A stretch of 64,000 bases of DNA from Tigriopus japonicus. Its lineage: Eukaryota; Arthropoda; Copepoda; Harpacticoida; Harpacticidae. How positions within the stretch are numbered: position 1 is the first letter of the stretch; each line of letters opens with the position of its first letter. This document shows positions 10,064 through 44,124 of this stretch, one piece after another. Below the pieces are notes generated by a model. That model searched no databases and was not told the DNA's origin. It was given only the letters and a program-made list of their open reading frames with translations. The stretch lies in NCBI GenBank assembly GCA_010645155.1, contig CM021317.1, forward strand, positions 1,045,330-1,109,329, written 5' to 3'. A program made the position numbers and the translations under genes.

Positions 10064-10129
10064 GTCAGGACTAGATATTTTCTTTAAGAGTCGCTAGTGC
10101 TTTTGAACGGTTTCAGGACAACTCAACCC

Positions 10130-10670
10130 AATGGACACATTGACTTATTGGATAACTCGACCCATGGGACAACTCGACCCATTGGACAACTCGACCCATT
10201 GGACAAGTCGACCCATTGGACAACTCGACCCATTGGACAAGTCGACCCATTGGACAACTCGACCCATTGGACAAGTCGACCCATTGGACAAGTCGACCCA
10301 TTGGACAAGTCGACCCATTGGACAAGTCGACCCATTGGACAAGTCGACCCATTGGACAAGTCGACCCATTGGACAAGTCGACCCATTGGACAACTCGACC
10401 CATTGGACAACTCGACCCATTGGACAACTCGACCCATTGGACAACTCGACCCATTGGACAACTCGACCCATTGGACAACTCGACCTATTGGACAATTCGA
10501 CCCAGGTGGACAACTTGATCCACCAGACAACTCGACCCAGCGGACAACTTGACCCAATAGAAAACTCGACCTAAAACAACTCAACCCAATGGACAACTCA
10601 ACCCACCAGACAACTCGACCCTTCAGATAACTGGACCCAGCAGACAACTTGACCCACAGCAGAACTTGCA
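10130..10670. repeat. 17-bp minisatellite, about 31 units
   Basis: The unit is GACAACTCGACCCATTG. A variant, GACAAGTC..., forms a nearly pure block around 10260-10385. The first and last units are degenerate. The unit length is not a multiple of three and the units lack stop codons, so long frames stay open on both strands. They would encode 17-residue repeats. These are by-products of the repeat and I do not regard them as genes. Confidence 0.95.
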
Positions 10671-11411: not shown

Positions 11412-12144
11412 ATGAAAAGCATAAAAAGGTTGCAAATACTTTTCACCTTTTTTGCTTTGGCAATACTCTTGTATTTGCCTTTGATGGCTGTCATCCAATC
11501 CAATAACACAACCAAATTCATAACTCAGTCAACTTGGGCCGATATCGACATCCCTGAACCATTAGTCAATGATGGAACATATAACCTCCTGAAGCCCGAA
11601 TGGGCCCTTGTAGGCAGCGATCCCAAGACCTATAAGGGCCCCATTGTTGAAGGCTGGCCTCCAGGGAAAACCCGCGATATGAACAAGATCTTGGTCAAGG
11701 ATTACGTTGTTGACCATTGCCAAGAACAGGACTTGAGTGGCGTGAAGCTCCTTGTAGCCGTGAAATCCGTTTCCAATCGCTTTGAGACCCGTGATACCAC
11801 CAGAGAGACGTGGGCCTCATTCCAATACGACCATCCAGATGTGAAAGTCCTGTTTTTCATAGGACAGCCCACTACCCCTTCATTGATGAATCGATTGAAG
11901 GCTGAGATGCAAGTACATTGTGATTTGGTGATGGTTCACGGCGTCGACTCCTATGACAATCGAACAATTAAGGCCGTGTCTCTCCTGAGATACATCAACG
12001 ATCATCAACTGGGGCTAAATCCAGATGTGACCATGGTGATGGACGATGATGCGTACTTGAATCTGCCTCGTTTGCATCATTTGATCTCACATAAGCTATT
12101 GGCTACATCGGTCGATAATTTTCTGACAGGATATGTTTACGATG
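11412..12144 (+). CDS. GT31 beta-1,3-glycosyltransferase-like gene 1, coding exon 1
   Basis: This encodes residues 1-245 of a predicted type II Golgi membrane enzyme of the GT31 family, which transfers galactose or N-acetylglucosamine from UDP-sugars onto glycans. The exact substrate is unknown. Visible features: a membrane anchor at residues 7-27, N-glycosylation sites at 31-32 and 183, the family motif RETW at 131-134, and the metal/UDP-binding DDD at 211-213. The exon ends in phase 1 at a good donor, GATG|GTAAGT. No plus-strand partner follows within the expected distance. The matching exon 2 is on the opposite strand at 17486-17865, inside a transposon-bounded inversion. Read through, the donor leads only to a short unrelated tail. 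The middle of the exon is almost identical to gene 2. Confidence 0.9.
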
Positions 12145-13108: not shown

Positions 13109-13129
13109 CTAGGGGCAGGAACTTAAGAC
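13109..13129 (+). mobile_element. orphan terminus of hAT family X
   Basis: The sequence TAGGGGCAGGAACTTAAGAC is the terminal inverted repeat of family X, known from 6385 (minus) and about 19007 (plus). Here it is cut off after 20 bases by the 1.1-kb transposon. Nothing of family X follows on the other side of that transposon. The continuation (ACTTAAGACGCATAAAA on the minus strand) is found next to the other copy, at 24414-24398. Its last nine bases are one half of a target duplication. Confidence 0.75.
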
Positions 13130-14242
13130 TCTAGCCTATTTTTTGCATACTCGGGAAAGTGAAATAGCCGCTAGAGGCGCGGCAATCGCGCGACTCATTT
13201 CAGCGCCATCTAGCGGGAAAAGTTCGACCTAGATTTCCACAAAGGACCTGTGTTTCGAAGTTTTGTCTTTAGCGATCGACTCCCAAATTGAATTTCAACC
13301 ATGAAAAAGGGCTGGAAAGATGGGAATAGTTTAGAAAGACGAGTATTTAATTGATGTGTGTAGTACGTTATTGTTATGCTTCAGAATATGAGATAGCTGT
13401 TGTATCGCAATATATTGTATGCAAATGAGACATGTATTCAGCTGTACGGCTGGTCTAATTTACATGTTTGCACAAATGATAATAGAATATAGGAAAGCAA
13501 TAAAGAATAAAGGAAAGTGTGTTAAATTCTTAACCTTGTGACTAAACTTCATTTGAAGTGGAGGTTCAAAGGATTTCCTGGTTGTCATTCCTGTTTCAGG
13601 TTTTCACTTGCTTCTTCAAAGCCCAAGTCACCGTGATCATTGTACTGGACTATGTTATACAGTAATTAAGTAATAAGTCGAATCTGATAGAACGTGATGG
13701 AAAAGAACGGAAAGAATGTATGAACAGAAACGAGTTATCAAAGAGGAAGCAGGAAAGCGAACTTGATTCAAATCATCAAGCTTTTCCCTCTTGTCATTAG
13801 GTTTGTGAGCTATTCACAAGAATAAAGAAAACATAAGATTACAAGATGAAATTAATGATCAAATAAGCTTTGAAGAGTGTGTCCATCTGTTCCTTCATGG
13901 TGACTACTGATGGATTTGAGTTCGTATTTTGCAATACTTTTGCCATCTTGGTCCTTAAGGGTCAAAAAGCTTGACCACTGCTAAACTTCTCAAACAGCAA
14001 GATACCTAATCTCCAAGTAAAATGTGGCAACACTCCCAACTCGGAACCCATCACTAATGGTGACCCACCTTTCGAAACGTCTTTGGATGAATCGGATCTG
14101 ACTCTCCGACTGAAGACCGGACGGAAGGAAGGAGTACAAATAGTTTGAATTTTTATCACTAGATGGTGCTAGAACGAGTCGCGCGATTGCCGCGCCTCTA
14201 GCGGCAGTTTCACTTTCCGAAGTATGCAAAAAAAAGGCTAGA
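13130..14242 (+). mobile_element. 1.1-kb non-autonomous DNA transposon, copy 1 (inversion endpoint)
   Basis: The ends are TCTAGCC and GGCTAGA, with inverted repeats of about 90 bp that include GCCGCTAGAGGCGCGGCAAT. No coding capacity is visible. Copy 2 at 24415-25525 is nearly identical and in the opposite orientation. The 9 bp at the left (ACTTAAGAC, 13121-13129) do not match the 9 bp at the right (CACCATCAT, 14243-14251). Each matches, in complement, one flank of copy 2 instead. The element therefore carries flanks from two different insertions. The 9-bp duplication is typical of Mutator-like elements, but the superfamily is not proven. Confidence 0.85.
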
Positions 14243-14251
14243 CACCATCAT

Positions 14252-15256
14252 TTATTAGAAATCCCAGATGATCCAATGTTCTACACACAATCATAGATTT
14301 CTCAACCACTGGATGTTGGACGACCGACCGCTTGGAGGGCAAAGCATTAAAAATTTTAGCATAAAAGGCACAATATTGTATGAGTAACTCTTTTTAGTCC
14401 ATGAATAAGTTTATTTGCTGCTTTTTGGTGTCATTTGCATTTTATTTTACATTTTAAGCATCTTTTTGCAACGTTTCATATCAGTAAAGCCAAAGTCAGT
14501 GACTAAATTTTTCGCCTATCCCTTGTTATCATCTATACATTTTAATATTTCCCCAAACGCTAGCTAGAATAAACTTCATTTTCTGAAAATTGGCCAAAAT
14601 ATTTAAAAGATATTTAAGATTCATGCCTTACTTAATAAAATACAAGTCAAAGCTTTTATCCTGGTGGGCATACTTACAATTTCGCACAACCATGTTATAC
14701 CACTTTCAAAGGCAGATACAGTCAAAATAGAAGGGGAGACCACAGGTCAGACGATAAAGTATGTGGGCTAGGTAAGGTTGAAAAGGGTGTTGGTGATGAG
14801 GTGTTGACACCTACAATGTTTCATATTTTTGAAAAATATGAAAACTCTTCTAAATAACCCTTTCATAGTCAGTGTTAAGGTTGATGTTGACACTGATGTC
14901 AGTGTTAGTGTTGACAATGACAATATGGCCAGTATTGATCAATGTCGGCAATGATGCAAAAATGCCGGTGTCACCCATCCCTAACGAGGGGGCGCCATGG
15001 AGAGGGCTGGATCTTGATAGAAGAATCTTCAAGTCCTTAGGATTTGGCCCACAGGGCTCAAAGGTTATCATACGGCTTAACCTCATAAGTTTAAGAAGGC
15101 CCCCATAGTGCTAGGGCTTAGGTCCTCATAATAAGTTGGGGCTCCGCAGAGTTACGGGACAACATTGCGAGGGCTTACTTCCCCACATGGTTAGGTCCCT
15201 GCAGAGTTAGGGCTTAGGGCCCCACAGGGTTAGGGACGGGCAAGGCTTGGGCTTCA
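14252..15256. other. no gene; low-complexity repeats
   Basis: No coding gene is seen. Around 14865-14945 there are GTTGAC/GTGTTA-type simple repeats. Around 15105-15240 there are degenerate GGGCTTAGG...CCCCACAGGGTTA units of roughly 25-50 bp. Confidence 0.5.
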
Positions 15257-16326
15257 TGCATTTCTAGTCACCCTAACATCTTCATTTTCCCGCTTTGCTC
15301 GTTTACCTCCATCAGACATTTTACATATACAGGGTGCGTATGGTATTTGTTGATCAACTTTGGTGGTGTTTTTTGGAATATCTGTTAGAGCTATAGGTTT
15401 GAAATTTTGACAGCTCAAAGATGAGTCATATGTGAGTGTGTGGACGAAAAATGGCATCAAAAGAATAATTTAAAGTTCCAATTTGGAGGAAAAGACAAAA
15501 GGTCTTGTTAGAACTTCGCACCGGAAAGTACAATAAACAAAGTCTGGCTGTAGGACAGTTATGGCGATTTCGTTGGACCGGACTTAATTTTGACCTCCTA
15601 ACTCTTCGAATCTCAATCCGTTGGATTTTTTCATATTGGGCGTGGTTAAAAGACATACCAACCGAACTCCATGCAACACCTCAGACGAATTGAAGCAAAA
15701 AAACCGCCATGAATTTGCAAACTTGTCCAAGGACTTGGCAGCCAAGGCCTGCTCCCGATTCAGGCCCAGACTGGAAAGAGTTTTCACGAGAAAGGCGGTT
15801 TCTTTGACTAAAATAATAGTATTTTCATTGCTGAATCCAAATATGTGCATATTTCTCGAATCGGACCAAGATTTTTGAAATGGCAGCCTTTTTCCTGCAG
15901 AACTCCTGAAATCAACAAATACCATACGCACCCGGTACTAGTCAGTTCTATTTTACTCTCCGGACAATAAAGTATGTGAAACGCCATTGCCTTTGCCATA
16001 CGTTAACATATGCGTCCGTAGCACGCATGGCGCAATCGGTCTAAGAACCGAACGACTGCACCCGAAGATCCGCCTAACCAAGGCGTTTGATCAACCCGGT
16101 ATTTTTGGGTTCCTTAAAGGACACGCCTTAAAGTCGAAAGGGGTGTTTGATGGTTATATTTGATGCATTTCTAGTCACCCTAACATTTTCATTTTCCCGC
16201 TTTGCTCTTTTACCTCCATCAGACAATTAACATTTTCTTGTCAGTTCAGTTTTACTCTCCGGGCAATGAAGTATGTAAAACGCCATTGTCTTTGCCATTC
16301 GTTAACACACGCGTCCGTAGCACACA
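15257..16326 (+). mobile_element. miniature LTR retrotransposon (TRIM-like)
   Basis: Two direct repeats start TGCATTTCTAGTCACC and end GTAGCACRCA. The left repeat (15257-16027) is interrupted by the MITE at 15330-15935; without it the repeat is about 165 bp. The right repeat is 16164-16326 (163 bp). The internal region is only about 136 bp. It starts directly after the left repeat with TGGCGCAATCGGTC at 16028. That matches a primer-binding site for a serine tRNA whose acceptor ends in GACTGCGCCA, with one or more changes. There is no protein-coding region. I find no matching target duplication, so one end may be altered. Confidence 0.6.
15330..15935. mobile_element. mariner-type MITE inside the left LTR, 606 bp
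   Basis: The ends are CAGGGTGCGTATGGTATTTG at the left and, in complement, CCGGGTGCGTATGGTATTTG at the right. TA lies on both sides (15328-15329 and 15936-15937). It interrupts the left repeat of the miniature LTR element; the right repeat of that element shows the uninterrupted sequence. No transposase is seen. Confidence 0.8.
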
Positions 16327-16355
16327 GACGCCATTTCAAACTTAAATAATATTTA

Positions 16356-16506
16356 TGCACCCACAAATGAAGGGAGTAATGGCCAAGATCCAACATCACT
16401 CATTTCATTTTAATTGACACCCCTCGGGCTAACGCCCTCGGGTCGCCAATAAAATGAAACTCCCCCGGCCGGATTTTGGCCATTACTCCCTTCATTTGCG
16501 GGTGCA
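16356..16506. repeat. inverted repeat with ~35-bp arms
   Basis: The arm starting TGCACCCACAAATGAAGGGA is repeated in complement as TCCCTTCATTTGCGGGTGCA at the right end. It directly follows the miniature LTR element. It is either a small MITE or a hairpin. Confidence 0.6.
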
Positions 16507-16625
16507 CATGGTATTTTGTTGACCAACTCATCCTTCTTGGGACTTCTATTACAATTTTCAACCCTGAAAATCAGTTCAACCTTGGACATTCGTAATATCC
16601 AGCTGGCATGCTTTGCCTGCTCAAT

Positions 16626-16760
16626 ACATAGGATCAATTATTAATCAGTAGATAGCGTGCAAGCTTTAGCCAGTATGATTTGGAAAAGGGGGCGAAATGC
16701 CTTGAATTTGTGAGGAAAATGTCGCCCTCACAACTGTTGAGCGGACACTTAGTGTGACTA
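16626..16760 (-). repeat. dispersed repeat, minus-strand copy (second copy at 53330)
   Basis: The complement of this stretch aligns with 53330-53462, including TGTCCGCTCAAC.GTTGTGAG, GGCGACATTTTCC and AAGCTTGCACGCTATCTA. It has no coding content. The repeat family is not identified. Confidence 0.55.
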
Positions 16761-17485
16761 AACACGCGCACCAAGAACAATTTTTCAAAACTCGTTCTTG
16801 AAGCCACAATATGTATGCACAATATGTATGCCCATATATGTATTGGTTTAACCCTACATAACGCAAAAGCTTAATTTTGTGGTCTTCCTAACAATGACCG
16901 ATTCAAGGTATTGGCAAAAAAGTTCCCCTTTGAGAAATGTTGTACTGTAGAATTCAAATCCAAGGCATGGTCACCTAGTGACGTCTTCGGTGATTTCAAG
17001 AAAGTGACCACTAGCAATAACAAAAAGTGACCCAAAAACAAAACTCTAATCCACATTTGGTTCATCAATTGTACAGTTGACATTTGCCTGGTCACACATT
17101 TCAAATGTTCCCGCACTTTTGCCCGCTCAACAGTTGTCGACCGGAGACACATTATTAGGCTCACACTCCATCTAGTATTTAATAGATCTCAATCCTCAAT
17201 ACCGGCTTTAAGAGCTAGCTCTGTTCGAAAGACATGGTTCATTCAAAGGGCAATAAAGTGATTAGTAGGACAATGAATTGATTTGTAGGGCAAAAAATAA
17301 GTTGAAGTGAAATAATATTTTGGACCTGACCTCTTCAGGCTCGGAGAAAGTCTCAAAAAAGGAGAAGGCGGTCAAAAAAAAAGTACAATAAACTCTTCTC
17401 TTCACCACAAGTTCCAAGTTGTGCCTCAACATTCAAAATATTTAAAAATCACCCACAAAGCTGCCAAACTATTTACAAAATATTT

Positions 17486-17865
17486 CTACTTATCGCCACT
17501 AATTTGACACTCCTTGACAAGTTTGTGAAATATTTTCAGTCTATCATTAGGTGTTTGATAGTGCAATAGCAAGTTGTGGCACGTAATGTCCTCGAGATTT
17601 TTTTTCAAGGGCGAAAATTGAGAGTGTGCCACTCGCGGAAATCCGCAAGCTTCCGCGCAAAATCCGGTGATGAAAACATCGTTGATATGCAGGAATGGAA
17701 GCCTAAAGGCTTGCTTGACAAGACAGGGTAAGGTGATCCGTGGCACAAGATAACCGGAACCACTTAAATGCGGTGGAGTTGTAGTACCGTTGTACATGTA
17801 GGTGGGACACTCAGATGGCAACACAAACTTGTTTGTTGCATTTGGTTTTGGTCGGAGCACGGGAC
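17486..17865 (-). CDS. GT31 beta-1,3-glycosyltransferase-like gene 1, orphan coding exon 2
   Basis: This encodes residues 245-370, the C-terminal part of the catalytic domain. It has a good acceptor (TTTGTTTTGCAG just upstream), starts in the phase that exon 1 requires, and ends with TAG. It contains NDVFITGFCAEACGF, which corresponds to the E/DDVF.TG motif of GT31 enzymes, and six cysteines. Its length, 380 bp, equals gene 2 exon 2. On its own strand I find no exon 1 upstream. The closest exon 1 of the right subtype without a partner is 11412-12144 on the plus strand. Both lie at the borders of a transposon-mediated inversion, so this is read as the displaced half of gene 1. The open frame has no damage. 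Confidence 0.85.
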
Positions 17866-18119
17866 CTGCAAAACAAATAATTCATCTCAGAAGTGAACCT
17901 TCAAAAGGCAGCTAATGCACTTAGTCGAGCCTGGTTATTTATACTACAGTTTGGTATGATCAAACAATTGAGGAGTCAAAAGTCACTCTTTTGCAAAATT
18001 TATCTCTTCAGGTGTTGTATTCTCATGTCTGCTCCCTTCTACATGCTCTTACTCGTACTAGTCACTTTCCATTATGTATATATATCCGTGTCTTAGTACA
18101 GAAAACAACTAGTCATTTA

Positions 18120-18330
18120 CCAACATCTCTCCTGATGCAACCTGGCGCAGTCGGTTCGTGCCGACCTGCGAGCCGACTGTCGTGTGCCTCGACTGCATTT
18201 GGGGGAGTAAGTGGTGCCTTTGGAGGGTGGTGCCTCAACCGAGGGTGGCGGAACCATCGCGTGGCCAGGAGATCTCGTTTCCCGGCGGGTTGATGATGAT
18301 GATCCAAGGCTGCTTGAGAATCGCAAGAGG
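18120..18330 (+). other. possible 5' end of a Mag-like LTR element
   Basis: TGGCGCAGTCGGTT at 18142 matches the serine-tRNA primer-binding site also seen at 59298 (minus). It follows TGATGCAACC, which could be an LTR end. The next 180 bp are markedly GC-rich compared with the surroundings, as in the Mag-like gag region at 23-24 kb. I do not see a second LTR, so this is tentative. Confidence 0.35.
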
Positions 18331-18504
18331 CCATCTTTTACTGACAAAGTCCGAAATATTACGACAAACTTTTGCTCACAATTTTCACAGGATATTTCGC
18401 TCCGTTATTCGTACGGAAAAGCAAATGTTCAAGTTGCGATTAGTGATCATGACTATCTGGTTAAGAAGTTCCCGTAATATTAGATCCGCGATAACATAAA
18501 TGTT

Positions 18505-18998
18505 ACCGAAAATAGACGCTGAGAAAATTGCATTAATGACTAGAGATTAGGCAAAATCTCAGAAGTGGTTTAAATACCGTCAAAGACGATTAACAGCCAG
18601 CCATTTGGGAGAAATTTGTCAAATCACGAAAAAGCGCTACAAGCACAAGTTTTGTGAGTCAATGTTTAAACCGAAGAATCTCGCCGTTCCTGCTATCATT
18701 CATGACCAGACTTACGAGAGTGTGGCAACAAGAAAATTTTCAGAACAGAAACAGACTGGAAAAATCGTGACTAAAGCTGGTTTAATTCTTAATCCAAATC
18801 TACCGTTTTTTGGCTGCCTCACCCAACGGGTTTATTAAAGATAAAGAATCTCCCTTGAATGTCATGTGTCCGTTCAAAATCCGCGAAGAAAAACTCAACC
18901 TCAGCAATCTTGAAGTGGACGAATGTGGAGAAACGAAATTAAGAAAAACACCCAAATTTTCCTTCCAAATTCAAGGACAGCTTTCGATTAGCAAACTT
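18505..18998 (+). pseudogene. YqaJ-type (lambda exonuclease-like) domain fragment
   Basis: Proteins of this family are 5'-3' exonucleases of the PD-(D/E)XK fold. They occur in phages, viruses and many animal mobile elements. Visible motifs in order: WFKYRQRRLTASHLGEI, then a middle part ending AGLILNP.LPF, then AASPNGFIKD (compare SPDG), then a MCPFKIREEKL stretch where the family usually has E/D-x-KCP, and finally FSFQIQGQLSIS (compare YYxQxQGQL). A one-base shift near 18815 separates the two halves. The SPDG aspartate and the EIKCP acidic residue look changed. There is a stop near 18550. The fragment ends abruptly where hAT family X begins. It is most likely a remnant of a mobile element. 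Confidence 0.65.
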
Positions 18999-19960
18999 TA
19001 GCAAACGACAGGAACTTAAGACGAATAAACTTGTTCGTCTTTTTGGCCTTTATTCGTCGCGAAATTTTTTCGTCTAATTTGGATTTTATTCGTCTTTTTT
19101 CGTCTAATTGGCCAAAAAATTGGATTTTCTTAGATTTCAAGCGCTTGTAACGTTTTTTTTTCAATTTTCCAAGCAAATAAAAACTTCAAGGAAATTTCAA
19201 CCCCTCCAATCATTGCCAATGTAATAATTTGATTGTCAGTTGCGGTTTTGCACAAACAAAATACAATCCACACTTATAAATTAACTTGTACTCGTACAAT
19301 TGCTCGACAGACACAGAAAGAAAAGAATGCTATTGGGTTGAAAAGGCCATCAGAACAATTATTGGATTTGCAAATCTTATTTTAAGTATAGCTGTACCAA
19401 AAACGTTCCTTTAAAAAGGCATTTTAACTCTTGGTTTTTATTTGACATATGTACTACTGGCTAATTCTTGCTCGTTAGGTACTTCCTTTTTCTAATTTTT
19501 TTAGATTTCGCCGTTTTTGACAATCAGATCGGTTCAGACAGATTCCTTATCAATAGAGACATAAATAACGTCTATTTTGTGACAGCAGCTTTAAACGTCT
19601 TTTTTCGTCTGGACGGGCATTTAATTCTTCTTCTTTCTTATACGATAGGTTCATTCGCCTTTTTGGGAAATTAATTCGATTTTTTCCATTTTGCAAGTAT
19701 TTTTTTTCTTTTTTTTTCGTCTGTTGGGAACTTTTTGATCTAGGATATATCTGTTTATTTCCAAATATACAACACACAGGGTGACCTTCCCCCTCTCTAT
19801 TTCTTTGGGCAGATGGTCGACGAATACATAATAACTGCGGCAAGTTGTAACGACACTTAGGTCCTTGGATGGAGCTTGAATCGGAGGCGCTTGGACTGCC
19901 TCAACTTCCTCTCTGTTGGCTCCAATATTTGCTTCTCACGCTCTGTCGCTTCCTCCTCTA

Positions 19961-20788
19961 TCACAGCCTCATTTTCCTTCTCTCCGTCCTCTTCGGGCGG
20001 TGGGGCTGGTTGGTGGGCCTTAATTGGCCGAAGGAATTTCCTATTCCTCCATAGGCACCTGCCAGATGGGAGTTTGACTCTGTAGTCCCGCGAGCGACCT
20101 CTCTGGACCACCAGGTCAATCCTGTCCCAGAGCTTGCTTTGGTAGCTCTGGATGCGTGGATGCGTACCTTGGTTCCAACAGGGAGTGGAGGGAGCTCTCT
20201 GGAAGCCTTGTTGTAGCTCTTGGTCTTCCTGGCCCTGACCTCGGCCATTTTACTGTCATGGTCCTCCATGGCCACCAACCACTTCTTGTCAAAGGCCTTG
20301 TGGTGGCATGGCACGTGCAAGCGTATTGGGTGCCCAAACACGATCTTGGCTGGAGACTTCCCCCCTTCCCTTGGGGTGTTCCGCAGCTCAAGCATGCCTT
20401 TCCGGAAGGTCTTGTTGACTTTGCCACCTGTCTTTAGGAGCAGGGCTTTGACTTGCTTCACGGTAACCTCTGCTTGCCCATTTGACTGGGCGTATCCTGC
20501 TGTTGACAAGCGATGTCTGACTTTCCACTGATGCAGAAAGTCTTGGGTCTCTTGGGCGGTGAATTGTAACCCGCCATCTGACTGGAGTCTCACTGGGACC
20601 CCTGACTTGCAAAACATCTCTCTCAGGCAGGTGATGAGGGTGTTGGCAGTGGGCGCCTGTCTGAACTGGTACACTTCAGGCCAGCCAGAGTATCTGTCGG
20701 CCAAAACAAGGAAGTGGGTGCCGGATGCCTCGCAAAAATCGGTAGCAATCTCCTCAAACACTGGGGTGGGCATGGGGTCCCTCATCAT
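19961..20788 (-). pseudogene. integrase core of the Mag-like element
   Basis: The integrase would insert retroelement cDNA into the chromosome. The catalytic triad is visible: ATDF (first Asp), LQSDGG (second Asp) and NGQAEV (Glu), with the typical FLVLADRYSGWPEVYQF between. About 275 residues remain open. The N-terminal zinc-binding H2C2 part is absent, removed with RNase H by an internal deletion. The C-terminal 60 residues have a proline- and lysine-rich tail. No partner for processing is intact, so I treat it as non-functional. Confidence 0.85.
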
Positions 20789-20799
20789 GGGCTCCTGGG

Positions 20800-21423
20800 C
20801 CTGGCTTGGTAGGAGCTGGCACTGAACGTTGTGAGCAGCTGGCTCTCCTCATCCAAAGGGACCTGGAAGTACCTGTGCTTGGCATCACACATTGTGAAGT
20901 ACCTGGCTGATAGGGGATTGAGGAGACCGCCTGCTTCGGTGTAGTCATGGGGTGGACTGGCCACTTGACGTATAAGTTGAGCCTTCGCAAGTCCACGCAG
21001 AGCCGGCACTTGCCACTCTTCTTCATCACAAAGGTGGCAGGGTGGAGCCAAGGGGTGTCCTCTGTGACCTCCTCAATGATATCCTTGTGCTTGAGGTCCT
21101 CAATGGTATTCTTGGCCTCCTCTTTTATTGGAATGGGTATGGGCCTGGGTCCATTCACATGGAACGGCTGCACATCCTTGGTCAGCTCAATGTGGATGGG
21201 TTCGCCCTTCATTGGTTTGAGCGTTGATTCACAGTTGAACACGTCCTCAAATTCCTCCAAAAGTTCATTCCTCTTTCGCTTGAGGATCTTGGGATCATGT
21301 CCTGTCTGCTGCTTCTCAGTGTCCAGCACAGTGCAGGGCCTGATCTGCTTGGGGAACTTGCCAGGGACCAAGCAGAGAGCTTTGCAACACTGCAAGTTGA
21401 TGAGCGTTACATTGTACTCATTG
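20800..21423 (-). pseudogene. truncated reverse transcriptase of the Mag-like element
   Basis: The N-terminal half of the RT domain is present: a linker with an acidic FEDVF segment, PRPIPIPI, a MKKSGKCRLCVDLRRLN region, and motif A (DAKHRYFQVPLDEES) in a shifted frame. The sequence then joins integrase. The YxDD active-site motif and RNase H are missing. The upstream end is cut at 21424 by a hAT insertion. Two frame changes are needed to read it. It cannot be catalytic. Confidence 0.8.
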
Positions 21424-21431
21424 GTAATGAC

Positions 21432-22687
21432 TAGGGACGGGCAAATATGGTAAAAATATTTTTGGTAACATAAACCCATTTTTCCGCACTTTTGCACTTT
21501 TTATTTACGTTTTTGGCCAAAATTGACAAATTGTTAAGAAAATGTAGTGGCTTTTGAAAGAATTTTTAGTTTCAAGATCAAATTTTGAACTAGTCGAAAA
21601 AGCTTGCATTTGCAATCAACCATTCTTAGCACCTTGAAGAAATATGTGCATTTCAGACGCAAACCTCACACTTTATTCACCATCTTGCTTTAACTATAAC
21701 ATCCTGTTTACTAAACTAAAGATTAGACTAAAGAATCTCATTGCATGCAACCAACAAATAGCAAACCTAAAGAAACTCATGTTATGGTAATGGAAGGATC
21801 TACTAACAATATAGATTGCAGAATTAGGTTTGTTGCCTACAAAGATCGCTATTTCTAAAAAGGGCCGTCCGTTATAAACTTAAAATCATCAAGCTAAGGA
21901 TACATCAATGTAGCAGTACACATTGTTACATTGACTCGAAGATATTACTTTTAAGTTCCAAAAGTATTTGAGAACAGTTTTGATGTGATGAGACAGTGAA
22001 TGCCACATTTGAAATTGAGTTCTGGTAATTAGGCCATGGGTCAAATATTGAAGTAATGCCACTAAAAACATGCTTAAAACACATTTATGACTATTTTCTT
22101 TGATCTAATTGTTAGGCACACTTGGGTATTTTTCTGTTCAATTTTGAATGTCTATTTTTGAAGGACAAAATTGGAGTGATGTAAAGCCATATAAAACAAT
22201 TGCTAAATTTATTTCGACAATATTTTAGGTACATACATCCACGAGACTACCTTAGGAATGAAAAATTCAGAAGAATGTTGACTAGAGTATTTTTCATGAC
22301 TCTACATCCTTTTTGCTAGTGACCTAATTAATAGAACTCTATTACTTGTGCGGCATTGTCTCTTCACCTCAAACTAGTCTCAAATGTCTTTAGAACTTGT
22401 AAATGACTTCTCCTGCTCAATTTGGAGCCGTGGGTACTCCATGAATGACGTTTTAAGTCCAAATGCAAGTTATTTGCTCTTTTTTACATTTATTTGCACT
22501 TTTTTGACATTTATTTGCTCTTTTTTGACACTTATTTGCTCTTTTTTCGACATCTATTTGCTCTTTTTTGACATTTATTTGCACTTTCAACATTTTTCTG
22601 CACTTTGTTTTGCACTTTTGGGCACATTTTTTTGCAACTTTTGGTAACTAAAAGGGTAAGATTATTTGCACTTTCTGCCCGTCCCTA
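21432..22687. mobile_element. hAT non-autonomous element, 1256 bp
   Basis: The ends are TAGGGACGGGCAAA and, in complement, TAGGGACGGGCAGA. An exact 8-bp duplication, GTAATGAC, is at 21424-21431 and 22688-22695, placed inside the protease-RT region of the Mag-like element. The right part has TTTGCACTTTT and TTTGACATTTA repeats like those in the elements at 6523 and 9238. No transposase domain is visible. Confidence 0.9.
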
Positions 22688-22695
22688 GTAATGAC

Positions 22696-24170
22696 GAAGG
22701 AGGTCTTGAATCCCACCTCTCTAAGTCTGATCACCAAAGTCTTGCGCCCCACCGTCTCGATGGGCAGGTTGTTGGCGGTGGCCAATGCGTCCTCGCACTT
22801 GCGCAGAGCCCTGTTGTTGTAACCTAACCTCTTGTAGTGGCTGACGGACATCAGGTTGGACCCGGAGCCGGTGTTGGGCAGCACCTCAAGCTGGCCAACA
22901 TTCATTCCACTCTTGGGATCCTCAAAGCTCAACCTGATTTTTTGCAGTGTGCAGAACGGTCCGGTGTTGTTGTTCACCTGGCAACACACCACGGATGAGA
23001 CCTTGGCCTCCTTGGACTGGTCGGTTTTCTCGTTCTTGTTGCCCTTCTTCTCATGGATGTCGCGTCCACAGCAGCCACACTTGCGGTTGCCTCCCTGGCT
23101 CTGGCTCTGGCTCCTGCCTTGACCCTTGTTGCGCCCATTGGAGCGGCCCCTGTCGCTCCTGTTCTGGCCAACCCAGTTCACTTCGGCGCCGCCCAGCTTG
23201 CTCCGATTGGCATAAGCAGCCTCCTTTGCGTTGCAGCTGTCGATGGCTCTCTCCAGGGTGGGAAACTGGTGCTCCTCCAAGAGCTCGTCCCGGGCCCTGT
23301 TGTCTTTTGTACCTACAATAATGCGGGTGACAATTTGCCGCTCTCTGCAATGGGGGCAGACATCCGCATCATCGGCCAGATCGGTGAGCGCAAACCTGAA
23401 ATCGTCAAAGGTTTCATGCTTGTGCTTGCGGCGGTTGTTGAAGGCCACAAGGTCCACGGCCACGTTTCTCTTGGCTCTGAAGTAGGCCTGGAGTCGGTCC
23501 AGTATCATGGGCACGGTGGTGCTGGGGTCATCAACATCGATCTACTCGTGGGTCTTCACGATCCTGGAGGCGTGGGCGCCAAGGGCTGTTGTCAGAGGGT
23601 ACACTTGGACCTCCCTCTCGAAGGTGCTCAGCTTATGCACTTTGACGTTGTTGTCCCATTTCTCCCTCCAGTCCTTAAATCCTTTGAAGGTGGCATCCTA
23701 AGCCAACTCTGACAGTGAGGAGAAGTTGAAGGTCCTGGGGGCCGACGGGTGGGCCTGGCCTCTACCAGCTTGGGAGGCGGGGCCAGCGGATGATCCGGTC
23801 GCGCTTCTGGATGCAGAGGATACTGTGGCCGCCCTCGTGAGGCAGCGGATCTTGAAGTTGGGGCGCTCAATTTACGGTCTAGTTCCCTAACTTGGAGCGT
23901 GTGGTGATCCTGCTCGGCCTCTTCGTCCGTGATCCCCTCCAGCGCCGTGCACTTGGCGGCTGCTTCCTGGTTTTTCTCCAGCTTGGTCTGGGCGCCCAGG
24001 AGCATGTCCTCGGCCTCTTCCAGGGCGGGTATTGCTGTGCGTCTAGTGAGACCCTCACTCTCTTGGATCTTGGCCATCAAGGTCTCCACAATGGCCCTCG
24101 CGTTGGTTGCGAAGGTGGCCCGGCTCCTGCAGGCGGTGGTGATGGCTTCCTGGTTACCGGCCACTACCAT
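22696..24170 (-). pseudogene. Gag and protease region of the Mag-like element
   Basis: Gag would form the particle and bind RNA; the protease would cut the polyprotein. The first frame (24170-23628) is a charged, helical-looking Gag part. After a frame break near 23600-23515 the second frame (23514-22690) holds a nucleocapsid-like stretch (KCGCCGRDIH, basic, Gln/Ser/Gly-rich) and a retroviral-type protease. The protease active site reads NTGSGSN rather than the canonical DTGS, so the catalytic Asp is replaced. The frame is cut by the hAT insertion at 22688. It is more GC-rich than its surroundings. Confidence 0.75.
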
Positions 24171-24414
24171 TGTGCTGGGGTGGCTGGGATATTCTCAGAT
24201 TTCCCTTTTTTCGTTTTGGGAGCGTTCTCGATCGTACCAATTGCGCCATGATCTAGCATATATCTGTTTATTTCCAAATATACAACACACAGGGTGATCA
24301 CTTTTATTCGTCTTTTTCGTTTAATCGGTCAATTTTATTCGTCTTTTTTTCGTCTAATCAGCCAACTCTGTTCGTCTTTTTTCGTTTAATTTGACAGTTT
24401 TATGCGTCTTAAGT

Positions 24415-25525
24415 TCTAGCCTTTTTTTGCATACTTCGGAAAGTGAAACTGCCGCTAGAGGCGCGGCAATCGCGCGACTCGTTCTAGCACCATCTAGTGA
24501 TAAAAATTCAAACTATTTGTACTCCTTCCTTCCGTCCGGTCTTCAGTCGGAGAGTCAGATCCGATTCATCCAAAGACGTTTCGAAAGGTGGGTCACCATT
24601 AGTGATGGGTTCCGAGTTGGAGTGTTGCCACATTTTACTTGGAGATTAGGTATCTTGCTGTTTGAGAAGTTTAGCAGTGGTCAAGCTTTTTGACCCTTAA
24701 GGACCAAGATGGCAAAAGTATTGCAAAATACGAACTCAAATCCATCAGTAGTCACCATGAAGGAACAGATGGACACACTCTTCAAAGCTTATTTGATCAT
24801 TAATTTCATCTTGTAATCTTATGTTTTCTTTATTCTTGTGAATAGCTCACAAACCTAATGACAAGAGGGAAAAGCTTGATGATTTGAATCAAGTTCGCTT
24901 TCCTGCTTCCTCTTTGATAACTCGTTTCTGTTCGTACATTCTTTCCGTTCTTTTCCATCACGTTCTATCAGATTCGACTTATTACTTAATTACTGTATAA
25001 CATAGTCCAGTACAATGATCACGGTGACTTGGGCTTTGAAGAAGCAAGTGAAAACCTGAAACAGGAATGGCAACCAGGAAATCCTTTGAACCTCCACTTC
25101 AAATGAAGTTTAGTCACAAGGTTAAGAATTTAACACACTTTCCTTTATTCTTTATTGCTTTCCTATATTCTATTATCATTTGTGCAAACATGTAAATTAG
25201 ACCAGCCGTACAGCTGAATACATGTCTCATTTGCATACAATATATTGCGATACAACAGCTATCTCATATTCTGAAGCATAACAATAACGTACTACACACA
25301 TCAATTAAATACTCGTCTTTCTAAACTATTCCCATCTTTCCAGCCCTTTTTCATGGATGAAATTCAATTTGGGAGTCGATCGCTAAAGACAAAACTTCGA
25401 AACACAGGTCCTTTGTGGAAATCTAGGTCGAACTTTTCCCGCTAGATGGCGCTGAAATGAGTCGCGCGATTGCCGCGCCTCTAGCGGCTATTTCACTTTC
25501 CCGAGTATGCAAAAAATAGGCTAGA
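24415..25525 (-). mobile_element. 1.1-kb non-autonomous DNA transposon, copy 2 (inversion endpoint)
   Basis: This is the inverted partner of 13130-14242, nearly identical along its length and two bases shorter. The left flank GTCTTAAGT (24406-24414) is the complement of ACTTAAGAC at 13121-13129. The right flank ATGATGGTG (25526-25534) is the complement of CACCATCAT at 14243-14251. Its own two flanks do not match each other. It contains one copy of the ~125-bp dispersed repeat (24613-24740). Confidence 0.85.
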
Positions 25526-25689
25526 ATGATGGTGCGACACGGGATCCAGGATTGGATTGAAATCGGACGTATAAACTTTCGGTTTCTGAATATGGCTCCT
25601 CCATCAATGGATTTATCGTGTGGTTTTTGATTATTTTTCACTTTTTCGATCGTTCCAATCCTATTCCATTTCTTTGATTGATTGTCTTG

Positions 25690-30931: not shown

Positions 30932-31664
30932 ATGAAAAGTATACAAAGGTTGCAAATATTTCTCACCTGTTTTACTTTGGCAATGCTCTTGTATTTGCCT
31001 TTGATGGCAGTCATCCAATTCAATAACACAACCAAAATCATAACTCAGTCAACTTGGGCCGATATCGACATCCCTGAACCATTAGTCAATGATGGAACAT
31101 ATAACCTCCTGAAGCCCGAATGGGCCCTTGTAGGCAGCGATCCCAAGACCTATAAGGGCCCCATTGTTGAAGGCTGGCCTCCAGGGAAAACCCGCGATAT
31201 GAACAAGATCTTGGTCAAGGATTACGTTGTTGACCATTGCCAAGAACAGGACTTGAGTGGCGTGAAGCTCCTTGTTGCCGTGAAATCCGTTTCCAATCGC
31301 TTTGAGACCCGTGATACCACCAGAGAGACGTGGGCCTCATTCCAATACGACCATCCAGATGTGAAAGTCCTGTTTTTCATAGGACAGCCCACTACCCCTT
31401 CATTGATGAATCGATTGAAGGCTGAGATGCAAGTACATTGTGATTTGGTGATGGTTCACGGCGTCGACTCCTATGACAATCGAACAATTAAGGCCGTGTC
31501 TCTCCTGAGATACATCAACGATCATCAACTGGGACTAAATCCAGGTGTGACCATGGTGATGGACGATGATGCTTACTTGAATCTGCCTCGTTTGCATCAT
31601 TTGATCTCACATAAGTTATTGGTTACAGCGGTTGATAATTTTTTGACAGGATTTGTTTACGGTG
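30932..31664 (+). CDS. GT31 beta-1,3-glycosyltransferase-like gene 2, coding exon 1
   Basis: This encodes residues 1-245 of a predicted 370-residue Golgi glycosyltransferase of family GT31. It has a signal anchor at about residues 7-27, RETW at 131-134 and DDD at 211-213. The donor is GGTG|GTAAGT, phase 1. The partner exon 34589-34968 is on the same strand and joins in frame. Over 496 bp (31038-31533) it differs from gene 1 by a single base. Before and after that it differs by 10 of 106 and 10 of 131 bases. The intron (2924 bp) holds transposon debris. The acceptor substrate cannot be told from sequence. Confidence 0.93.
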
Positions 31665-34588: not shown

Positions 34589-34968
34589 GTCCCGTGCTCC
34601 GACCAAAACCAAATACAACAAACAAGTTTGTGTTGCCATCCGAGTGTCCCACCTACATGTACAACGGTACTACGACTCCACCGCATTTAAGTGGTTCCGG
34701 TTATCTTGTGCCACGAATCACCTTACCCTGTCTTGTCAAGCAAGCCTTTAAGCTTCCATTCCTGCACATCAACGATGTTTTCATCCCCGGATTTTGTGCG
34801 GAAGCCTGCGGATTTCCGCGAGTGGCACACTCGCAATTTTCGCCGGGCAAGAAAAAGCTTTCAGACATCACTTGCCATCATCTTCTACTACATTATCAAA
34901 CACCTTCAGACAGACTCAAAATATTCTCCAAGTTTATCAAGGAATGCCCAACTGACTATGATAAATAA
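34589..34968 (+). CDS. GT31 beta-1,3-glycosyltransferase-like gene 2, coding exon 2
   Basis: This encodes residues 245-370 and completes gene 2. The acceptor is CTGTTTTGCAG|GTCCCGTGC. It contains NDVFIPGFCAEACGF. The Pro replaces the Thr seen in genes 1 and 3 at the same place in the E/DDVF.TG motif, so activity may be altered. It is close to gene 1 exon 2 over its first two thirds and more diverged near the C-terminus (after the QFSP segment). It ends with TAA at 34966-34968, with a polyadenylation signal at 34972. Confidence 0.92.
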
Positions 34969-40030: not shown

Positions 40031-40875
40031 CGTGAAATTTGATGGTTTTTTGAGGTCAAAATACTTCATTATTTAAAGGTTTCAAGGAACAAGAAGATGT
40101 CAATTTTGTTGTCAAAAGTTTTATTTTCAAATTTTACGATTTTTCAGTTTCATACGTCTTGAAAGAAAAAGGTTAATGCTGGATGGATTTTTTAAAGGAG
40201 AAGTATTTGACATCTTCACAATCATCAGATATGTTGGTTAATAAAGAGTGATTGCACTCTTATGAAACTAATGCCGTTACTTTTTGGCTTAACAAGCCGT
40301 TTTATATTTGTTAAACATGGAAAAAGCATTGAAACATTTTTTTAAGGAAAAGTTTTATGCATAGTTAGAAATACGTATATTTCTATTGGGGGAGTGCGAG
40401 GAAGTAAAAGTTATTTGAACATTGTGACAAACGATCTGCCCAACTCTGTGGACGTGAATCTATTGAATGTCATGCCCGTTGATTGTCTCTTATCTTTTTT
40501 AAATTGAACCTAGGATCAAAAAGATGCTCATACACACCTGTTCATTTAATCTTTCCTAACCAATTTGCTTTGAATAGTCAATTTGAGGGCTTTGAAATAG
40601 TTGATCTCAAGTTGCAATGAGATTGTTGTTCAATTGTGACGTTACAGTTTTCAGCAACCCAAACAAAACAGATATCTTTTGAAATGAGTTCAAGTGAATT
40701 TCAGTCCCATGTGCGGAACCAATTGCATTTTTTAGTCAACTTAGTTTGACTTTGCTTCTCTCTAAGGAACTATAATCTCCATGTAAGGCACTCTGCTCCT
40801 TGAAAACTAGAATCACCCTTATTAATTAAGACTACTTTGAACTTGCAGCTTTTTCTCGCGACCACGAGGTTTGTC
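40031..40875. other. upstream region of GT31 gene 3
   Basis: No separate gene is recognised. TTGCAG ending at 40848 looks like a splice acceptor, 27 bases before the ATG chosen for gene 3. This parallels the acceptors close to the start codons of genes 1 and 2. Confidence 0.4.
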
Positions 40876-41602
40876 ATGGTGCGAAACGTGGCCCTGCTTT
40901 TGGTGGTCGCCATAATCATGTGCTTGGCATATTTCGGAATTTATCATACACAATACCATCGACGAGGAGGGCATATCCATGAAGACTGGGCACAAATCGA
41001 TTACAAACTCGTGACCTACCTACTCAATCATGGAGAAATTAGTGCGCTCAAACCGGAATGGGCTTTAGTGGGAACTGACCCCAAAACCTATAAAGGTCCC
41101 ATTGTGAAAGGTTGGCCTCCAGGCAAATCCAGGGATATGAGGCAAATCATGATCAAAGATTATGTCATTGAGCAATGCCCTAATCAAAATCTGAATGGGG
41201 TCAAGTTGTTCATCGGGGTGAAAACGGCTTCCCAAAGGTTTGAGACACGTGACACCATCAGAGAGACTTGGGCCTCGTTTCAAAAAGATCATCCCGATGT
41301 GAAGGTCATGTTTTTCTCTGGCCAAGTGGAAGATCCTCAACTGAGAAAACATTTGAAGATCGAGATCCTGACCCATTGTGATTTGGTAATTGTTCACGGA
41401 CTTGACACCTATGAAAATGTGACGATGAAGACTGTGTCCATATTGAGCTACATCCACGATCACCAATTCGGATTGAACCCGGAGGTGTCCATGATCATGG
41501 ATGATGACTCATATCTGAATCTAGAGCGGCTATATCATCTCGTTTCACATCGCCTGTTGGCCAGGCCATTCGATAATGCTTTGACCGGCTTTGTTTTTGG
41601 AG
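40876..41602 (+). CDS. GT31 beta-1,3-glycosyltransferase-like gene 3, coding exon 1
   Basis: This encodes residues 1-243 of a predicted 367-residue GT31 enzyme. I chose the ATG at 40876 because the sequence just before it has a splice acceptor (TTGCAG, ending 40848) and because this start places a hydrophobic anchor at residues 4-22. The stem is followed by the family motifs RETW (129-132) and MDDD (208-211). The donor is GGAG|GTGAGA, phase 1, at the same place as in genes 1 and 2. Gene 3 is clearly paralogous to them but much more diverged, and shows no conversion tract. Its intron (2145 bp) contains a foldback element and a LINE scrap. Confidence 0.92.
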
Positions 41603-41637
41603 GTGAGATCAATTTAGAATCATTAGCATTAGAAGTG

Positions 41638-42289
41638 CAATGGGGGATGCAGGGGGAGGTTTGAGTGATCTCTTCAAAAATCTTATCGCGGGCGGATGAA
41701 AGAAGAGAAAAGGCTTGTTTGGCAACAGTGGGTGGCTCGTGAGAATTTGGGCAGTTTAAGGGTTTTCGCAATTTACAGACCGCCCTTGTGAATTAGATGC
41801 CATGAAAAATGTCGAATTGCAAGTTTGAACACCTTTGGTTAGGATTTTGGAAAAAAATGCACACTTTATTTGCTCGTTCTTGCACGAGAAAATTCTCAAC
41901 AAAAGGCCACTTTTTTGGGTAAGTACAAGTGTAAGTGATGTTAAAAGCACTGATTTGTATTGTAAAGCTCCAAAACCATCATGGTATCAAACAAAATGCC
42001 GTTTTTTGTACGTGTTTCTCTTCAATATCAAAGGTCTTGTTGAAGTGCTTGCCATTTTTTGATCAAAAGAATAATTTTGCAAATTCTTACAAAACCGAGA
42101 GTCAAAATGTCCAAACCGGCAATTCGACAATTTTTGTAGCATCTAAGTCATTAGGGCGGTCTGTAAAACGCGAAAACCCTTGCACTGACCAAAATCTTAC
42201 ATTGACGAACAAGCCTTTTCTCTTCTTTCATCCGCCCGCGATAAGATTTTTGAAGAGATCACTCAAACCTCCCCCTGCATCCCCCATTG
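41638..42289. mobile_element. foldback element in the gene 3 intron, 652 bp
   Basis: Long imperfect inverted arms: CAATGGGGGATGCAGGGGGA at the left, complement at the right, nearly perfect for about 80 bp. A second, more diverged stretch includes GGGTTTTCGC..TTTACAGAC. Arms total about 190 bp. It starts only 35 bp after the exon 1 donor. No target duplication was found and no coding region is visible. Confidence 0.75.
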
Positions 42290-43572: not shown

Positions 43573-43747
43573 AATAAAAGGTTTGCCCAGAATTGAGACA
43601 CGTGTTTGGCCAAATTTGACATTTTAAGGCCAGAAATCGTTACTTTGTTTGAAAAATCGTCGCATTAAGCCCAAGTGTGATTTGCCTGTTAATCTTTTCT
43701 TCTTATGGTGGTTCTTGTGAACGAAACTCTTCTCTCTTTTTTTCAAG

Positions 43748-44124
43748 GCACCTTGATGAGACCACCCGCGGACTCGGACAAAGAGTTCACCGACGCTTCA
43801 GTTTGTCCCACCTATATGTTCCAAGGGGACCAATTTCCCCCGTTCCTCAGCGGATCTGGGTATCTCTTACCTCAAGCTGTGATTCCTTGTCTTTACGAGC
43901 AAACCAGAAGTCTGCCATTCCTTCACATTGATGACGTGTTCGTGACGGGATTTTGCGCCGAGGCTTGCGGTTTCATGCGCGTTACGCACTCTCAATTCTC
44001 ACCTGGTCACAGGAACTTTGAGGACATCACTTGTCACAACATTTTACTTCATTACCAGTCGTCTGAGGAGAAGCTTCGTATTTTTGCCAAATTCTCTAAA
44101 GAGTGCTCATATGAAAGTCTGTAA
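43748..44124 (+). CDS. GT31 beta-1,3-glycosyltransferase-like gene 3, coding exon 2
   Basis: This encodes residues 243-367 and completes gene 3 in frame. The acceptor is TTTTTCAAG|GCACC. It contains DDVFVTGFCAEACGF, the best match of the three genes to the GT31 E/DDVF.TG motif, and conserved cysteines. The stop is TAA at 44122-44124. No AATAAA follows within the next 80 bp. It lies tail to tail with the LINE remnant on the minus strand. Confidence 0.92.

Follow-up and report, generated by a model that had tools for sequence, protein, structure and literature searches.

The window, i.e. the whole analysed stretch of 64,000 nucleotides of Tigriopus japonicus DNA, contains two inverted copies of one transposable element, which enclose a segment of about 10 kb (Table 1). 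Exon 1 of a glycosyltransferase gene of family GT31 (gene 1) is located outside this segment, whereas its exon 2 is located inside, on the opposite strand. The segment also harbours a retroelement frame; two more frames to the right of it gave no Pfam match.

Table 1. Coordinates of the features discussed, numbered from the first letter of the window
Feature	Position	Strand	Remarks
GT31 gene 1, exon 1	11412..12144	+	733 bases; outside segment; donor GTAAGT; Pfam Galactosyl_T
Outer end of family X element, cut at copy 1	13110..13129	+	
Site a, 9-bp target duplication	13121..13129	+	ACTTAAGAC; outer left flank of copy 1
MULE-like non-autonomous element, copy 1	13130..14242	+	1113 bp; terminal inverted repeats about 102 bp, 85% alike
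Site b, 9-bp target duplication	14243..14251	-	CACCATCAT on +; left end of segment
Segment, probably flipped relative to inferred ancestral order	14243..24414	.	10,172 bp between copies
GT31 gene 1, exon 2	17486..17865	-	380 bases including stop; inside segment; acceptor TTTTGCAG
Retroelement frame within segment	19961..20848	-	integrase core domain
Remainder of same family X end, now beside copy 2	24300..24414	-	
Site a, other half	24406..24414	-	GTCTTAAGT on +; right end of segment
MULE-like non-autonomous element, copy 2	24415..25525	-	1111 bp; inverted relative to copy 1
Site b, other half	25526..25534	+	ATGATGGTG; outer right flank
GT31 gene 2, exon 1	30932..31664	+	intact paralogue, used as control
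GT31 gene 2, exon 2	34589..34968	+	intact paralogue, used as control

The divided GT31 gene

In agreement with the initial annotation, the two exons of gene 1 can be joined in phase and then encode 370 amino acids, the same number as gene 2; recomputing the position of exon 2 after unflipping the segment likewise reproduced 20790-21169. The phase of gene 1 exon 1 also suits exon 2 of gene 2 (34589). The profile PF01762 (Galactosyl_T) matched exon 1 (1.5e-12) and exon 2 (4.9e-6) with its consecutive parts 2-118 and 128-192, and the Galactosyl_T domain of a GT31 beta-1,3-galactosyltransferase is thereby predicted to span both exons. Exon 1 contains a motif which we take to be the DDD motif. A predicted protein of 280 amino acids from Tigriopus californicus (P0001) is a relative that has the sequence of both exons in one chain. 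The identity between genes 1 and 2 is patchy and resembles gene conversion.

In a genome survey of this GT31 group, each of the two exons was found seven times at an identity of at least 50% (16 matches were considered for each exon; 8 and 9 weaker ones of 28-42% and one fragment were left out). Six pairs have both exons on the same strand, and gene 1 is the sole opposed pair. It is extremely improbable that its exons stem from different genes and that their opposite orientation has nothing to do with a flip: their match to gene 2 is uneven (96.6% identity for exon 1, 89.4% for exon 2), but patchy conversion would account for this, phases and splice sites fit, and all other exons of the survey are paired. 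Two further comparisons gave no information. The spliced gene 1 protein was absent among six matches from the protein collection, as was that of gene 2, and the in-order matches between the genes are only about exon-sized, so that intron and downstream DNA of the paralogue did not help to determine the orientation.

Exchanged duplications and the former order

The coordinates, the flanks and the near-identity of the elements were re-measured and agreed with those first reported: 1108 of 1113 aligned positions are identical, with 3 substitutions and 2 indels (2 gaps). Copy 1 is flanked by ACTTAAGAC and CACCATCAT, copy 2 by GTCTTAAGT and ATGATGGTG. The crosswise arrangement noted initially was also found: the two left flanks are mutually reverse-complementary, as are the two right flanks. 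On both sides the complementarity ends at 9 bp, which is the duplication size of the element family. For a random pair of 9-mers from the window the probability of complementarity is 9.3e-6, and for both sides about 8.6e-11; ACTTAAGAC occurs twice in the window, the other three 9-mers once each.

A marker of the former order is the end of the family X element, a putative hAT element according to the initial annotation; this end had been described as cut at copy 1 and continuing at copy 2. When the segment was unflipped, site a rejoined without loss, and the restored family X site aligned unbroken with all 39 non-self loci (52 rows; 40 of 994 candidates scored). Across the rejoined site b, only the window's own halves matched (32 of 32 candidates scored).

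The locus thus comprises two inverted copies with exchanged 9-bp duplications, and both a family X end and a GT31 gene are cut. Because three independent lines, namely the exchanged duplications, the continuity of family X and the strand survey of the exons, point in the same direction, it is well supported that the segment was flipped with respect to the ancestral order, separating the two exons of one GT31 gene. The flip would have moved exon 2 to the opposite strand, and this copy of gene 1 should no longer make the full protein. From the undamaged halves the initial annotation had concluded that the event is very recent, polymorphic or an assembly error; the halves are intact, but this alone does not imply a very recent event, and the copies have already diverged.

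Repeats of 1.1 kb with 99.6% identity are a classic place for wrong joins, and both gene halves retain intact frames and splice sites; both facts would suit an assembly error, in which the duplications match in the animal and the contig was flipped between the near-identical inverted repeats. We consider this unlikely: the window's only run of N is far to the right, with none in the segment or adjoining either copy, and the copy-specific variants (alignment positions 169, 456, 592, 906, 1099) are at most 314 bp apart, so that even paired short reads could presumably link them. Moreover, such an error, too, presupposes that a daughter copy arose 11 kb away from its parent. Among the candidates scored (32 of 32; best 40 of 1738; best 40 of 1733), the same assembly showed no second haplotype of this locus.

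The element family and the twin copies

Judged by their sequence, the paired elements are MULE-like. They possess long terminal inverted repeats of the MULE type (102 bp, 85% complementary), and 18 other copies of the family have a perfect duplication of their own of 9 or 10 bp; for MULEs, 9-11 bp are given (PMC4334395). A relative of 5.4 kb (L045) has its own 10-bp duplication and candidate MULE-type transposase pieces: among its three frame pieces, one matches PF21056 above the cut-off (1.8e-6), one matches PF10551 (MULE) below the cut-off (4.4e-4), and the third is without a match.

The flank listing contains 88 ends, 87 of them distinct (C12:9511593 was read twice). Left out were L017, L025, L032, L034, L036 and L039 (covered by larger loci), L042, L043, L064 and L065 (repeats of the window's copies) and L041, L066 and L067 (other places); L035 yielded no end. 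Under an 8-10-bp rule, 46 of the 88 ends have no partner, including 13 copies that were read at both ends (L004, L006, L007, L009, L011, L012, L022, L031, L033, L040, L047, L053 and L056). Unlike flanks alone are therefore not rare, and the double complementary match is the special feature of the locus. Inspected by eye, L004, L012, L040 and L056 have short or imperfect repeats. By chance, about 0.03 exact single flank matches would be expected over all pairs of ends; three were seen, two of them at the present locus. No other pair with exchanged duplications on the same chromosome occurs among the ends checked, and there is no sign that such exchanges happen often in this family. Two candidate pairs were rejected. 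C4:9483995 and C39:49179 have a 9-bp flank in common, but about 800 bp alongside are 92-95% alike, which suggests to us a single insertion whose surroundings are duplicated or allelic; at C12:9510559 and C12:9521232 the outward flanks are identical, which signals an inverted duplication and not a target duplication.

Beyond the initial annotation, the two copies turned out to be twins. They were compared with 19 other copies having both ends and most of the length, chosen from 38 other loci fetched. In the tree of these 21 copies, copies 1 and 2 form a clade of their own (support 100/100). They have in common 37 alignment columns absent from the other 19 (23 substitutions, 14 gap columns); roughly 10 of the substitutions sit in one adjacent block and could go back to a single event, and only one lies within the first 417 bases. 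With up to 3 mismatches allowed, a marker string is confined to these two copies genome-wide. At 46 family-variable sites the twins differ once, and the 171 other pairs have a median of 11 and a minimum of 1 differences, i.e. at least one of these pairs is equally alike. The nearest other copy is the same for both twins in eight of nine alignment sections (one of them a single base); in section 557-695 it differs, by one site. Copies 1 and 2 are each other's nearest relatives by far and are not chimeric between distinct family members, although chimerism would not show had the parents themselves been twins.

The likeness might be mere appearance if two old, independent insertions had recombined and then been wholly overwritten by gene conversion. 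The conversion-like pattern of the two GT31 genes lends this some plausibility; as the conversion must span all 1.1 kb to both ends and halt at the duplications, we regard it as very unlikely.

Proposed origin of the inversion

A crossover between two insertions, each duplicated at its own site, had been proposed initially. The flip and the split of the gene are supported, but the crossover is only one of two fitting mechanisms, and because the copies are near-identical and not chimeric, one original insertion would be enough in the case of hybrid element insertion. Tentatively, and at slightly less than even probability, we favour the view that the inversion, about 10-11 kb long, is real and was produced by the ends of a single MULE-like element. 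The starting point would have been one copy resident at site a (or b), which underwent replication; the transposase would then have paired the left end of one sister chromatid (or homologue) with the right end of the other, and the hybrid element would have been inserted at the other site, about 11 kb away. Thereby outer a would be joined to one copy, the stretch from a to b turned round and a second copy left at the far end; the expected product has exactly the exchanged duplications seen.

According to PMC2775673, chimeric copies prove ectopic recombination and identical copies are the mark of hybrid element insertion. By this rule the one-step insertion appears to fit slightly better than the crossover. 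The test is one-sided, since a crossover between two near-identical local copies gives the same sequence. Hybrid element insertion would leave identical copies and neither delete nor duplicate flanking DNA. Here site a rejoins without loss, site b has only the window's own halves as a match across its junction, and the copies are not wholly identical; their 3 substitutions and 2 indels need later mutation or an assembly error. PMC8225341, in weighing recombination against reversed-ends transposition, takes unlike, exchanged duplications of the copies as indicating recombination, which counts against the one-step insertion here.

Ectopic (non-allelic homologous) recombination would begin with an inverted daughter copy about 11 kb off, each copy having its own 9-bp duplication, and a later crossover would flip the segment. 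This is the standard published outcome, with exchanged duplications in the Galileo and BuT5 inversions, and the family has been mobile recently, as indicated by L022, L023 and L024, which are 2-4 substitutions apart on three contigs. We nevertheless hold it to be rather unlikely: two steps are required, the chance of a random daughter within 11.3 kb on either side in 195 Mb is about 1e-4 by our own estimate (local jumping would raise it), and the published positive proof, copies chimeric between distinct family members, is absent.

The structure described here has partial counterparts. Galileo inversion 2z3 of Drosophila buzzatii (PMC2775673) is likewise bounded by two copies of a single DNA transposon in inverted orientation, with exchanged target duplications; there, the element belongs to the P superfamily, the duplications have 7 bp and the copies are chimeric, which is that paper's proof of ectopic recombination, whereas here we find 9 bp, a MULE-like element, near-identical twins and a segment of only 10 kb. 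The BuT5 inversion 2s of Drosophila mojavensis (PMC3355041) also has exchanged 9-bp duplications, but the element is different and one of its copies is reduced to a 27-bp footprint; one of the breakpoints is 121 bp from the start codon of a gene, and the available portion of that paper reports none within an intron. In the hybrid element insertion of P elements (PMC2775673) and in the alternative transposition of Ac in maize (PMC8225341), the outcome is, as here, an inversion that carries a copy at either breakpoint, together with a duplication formed at the new site. These elements belong to other superfamilies, and in maize the inversions start from two copies close to each other, with loss of the fragment in between. 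The rearrangement in the citrus Arrufatina (PMC4334395) involves a MULE with dissimilar 9-bp duplications belonging to distant sites, and its authors propose that a single transposon sufficed; unlike here, one inverted copy lies beside a 2-Mb deletion, and there is no inverted segment between two copies. Our literature search brought up no comparable insertion attributed to an animal MULE.

It is conceivable, though with a probability somewhat below one half, that the locus represents a natural one-step inversion by an animal MULE, in which a single resident copy, by hybrid element insertion or copying insertion in cis, duplicated itself, flipped the neighbouring DNA and split a host gene. When a transposon-made inversion shows exchanged duplications, recombination between separate copies is the usual explanation. 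With its twin copies, exchanged duplications, family X marker of the old order and split gene, the present locus offers a direct case for asking whether a transposase makes natural inversions in one step.

Twin elements and their flanks

The two inverted 1.1-kb elements (copy 1 and copy 2; see table) are identical at 1108 of 1113 positions, and the nine bases on either side are exchanged between them, as the left flanks ACTTAAGAC (copy 1) and GTCTTAAGT (copy 2) and the right flanks CACCATCAT (copy 1) and ATGATGGTG (copy 2) show. Read directly, the crosswise 9-bp flanks reported in the initial annotation proved exact as written; the match stops after nine bases and, judged by the window's own 9-mer content, the chance of both matches is about 8.6e-11 per element pair.

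The genome searched comprised 194.85 Mb in 158 contigs (window: C3:1045330-1109329). The element family is represented by 131 matching pieces at the best 40 of 495 candidate places, and its 21-base end pattern gave 83 matches with at most two mismatches (control: 0). Among the 88 element ends read, 87 of them distinct, 18 copies have a perfect duplication of their own of 9 or 10 bp; 46 ends are partnerless under the pairing rule applied. A 5.4-kb relative (L045) has its own 10-bp duplication. Among the pieces of its open frames, PF21056 is matched by one (1.8e-6, above cut-off) and PF10551 MULE by a second (4.4e-4, below cut-off); a third has no match. The excerpt of PMC4334395 names duplications of 9-11 bp and long terminal inverted repeats as MULE features, and that of PMC3169594 describes a nematode Mutator/Foldback family making 9-bp duplications. 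We regard the family as MULE-like.

In a tree of 21 copies, the twins form a clade (support 100/100) whose stem measures 0.028 and whose tips measure 0.0018 and 0.0009, the median tip being 0.012. They share 37 alignment columns absent from the 19 other copies (14 are gaps; about 10 sit in one block), and their marker string occurs nowhere else in the genome. At family-variable sites they differ at 1 of 46, the 171 other pairs at a median of 11 (minimum 1, maximum 23). On these grounds, either one twin was very probably the template of the other or a single source gave rise to the two, well after the family's spread.

Several further repeats were observed. At L033/L048, a MULE end plus about 267 flank bases forms an inverted repeat 10 kb apart with about 95% identity. 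L052/L069 and L054/L068 lie on two contigs and have one 9-bp flank in common, placed at opposite ends of the MULE copy; the surroundings are 92-95% alike, and the two are probably one insertion within a duplicated or allelic stretch. L022 has differing flanks, though it is near-identical to L023 and L024, both with perfect duplications. A tandem array of about 32 copies of the 17-bp unit GGACAACTCGACCCATT is open in several frames.

Features and their coordinates (window positions unless a contig is named)
Feature	Coordinates	Strand
Copy 1	13130-14242	+
Copy 2	24415-25525	-
GT31 gene 1, exon 1	11412-12144	+
GT31 gene 1, exon 2	17486-17865	-
GT31 gene 2, exon 1	30932-31664	
GT31 gene 2, exon 2	34589-34968	
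GT31 gene 3, exons	40804-41664, 43693-44124	
Tandem array	10116-10656	
L033 / L048	C12:9510259-9511893, C12:9521232	
L052/L069	C4:9483995	
L054/L068	C39:49179	
L022	C1:13556714-13557719	

Orientation of the intervening segment

At site a, the target duplication with its outer half on the left, the outer flank was joined to the inverted inner flank with the nine bases kept once, which restored the end of the repeat named family X in the initial annotation. The continuity claimed for this repeat was borne out: of 994 candidates 40 loci were scored, one being the window itself, and the junction is unbroken in all 39 others at 89-94% identity (12 extra rows stem from internal parts of these loci). 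At site b, the duplication with its outer half on the right, a search for a match spanning the rejoined junction found none; the family X-type check has no counterpart there. Joining the exons confirmed that unflipping places both exons of GT31 gene 1 on one strand and in phase, giving 370 codons like gene 2. Genome-wide, the GT31 group (at least 50% identity; all 26 exon 1 and 23 exon 2 candidates scored) contains seven copies of each exon; six of the seven pairs lie on the same strand, and gene 1 is the sole opposed pair.

Alternatively, the orientation could be an assembly error, as near-identical inverted repeats are typical places for an assembly to be flipped, and neither exon of gene 1 is damaged. 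However, there is no assembly gap near either repeat, copy-specific variants are spaced at most 314 bp apart, and an error would still need the same local duplication of the element. Nor need undamaged exons imply a brand-new event: only 3 substitutions separate the twins over 1.1 kb, and in coding DNA that also spans 1.1 kb damage may simply not have arisen so far.

Possible origins of the apparent inversion

The initial annotation proposed a crossover between two inverted copies, both inserted earlier. The exchanged structure agrees with it, and in the excerpt of PMC8225341, where the contrast is reversed-ends transposition, unlike exchanged duplications are a sign of recombination. However, a crossover requires a daughter copy within 11 kb, by chance or local jumping. 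According to the excerpt of PMC2775673 on Galileo, the products look strikingly alike whether hybrid element insertion, starting from one site, or ectopic recombination made them; identical copies indicate the former and chimeric copies the latter. The twins are near-identical, and chimerism between family members was not seen, although twin parents would mask a crossover. Given the near-identity, and because a single event would suffice to yield the structure, one-step insertion appears slightly preferable. A MULE-made animal inversion with exchanged duplications is unreported in the open-licence literature searched, mostly titles and abstract openings and thus weak evidence (passages of PMC2775673, PMC3355041, PMC8277862, PMC8225341, PMC4334395, PMC3169594, PMC10809549 and PMC8504770).

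Consequences for the GT31 genes

Among proteins, every named relative of gene 1 comes from Tigriopus californicus; the highest identity is 80%. The DDD motif lies in exon 1 of gene 1, and the C-terminal portion of the Galactosyl_T domain in exon 2. The differences between genes 1 and 2 look like patchy gene conversion: exon 1 has a single one across a stretch of 496 bases, with 20 in its remaining 237, and exon 2 has nine among its initial 244 bases, with 44 over the final 136. By eye, the gene 3 exons appear joined in a 367-aa protein-collection match (P0002) on a 1.4-kb public contig, perhaps a transcript.

Because exon 2 now lies on the opposite strand, gene 1 is expected to yield a truncated protein; gene 2, 19 kb away with its exons joined, may cover for the loss.
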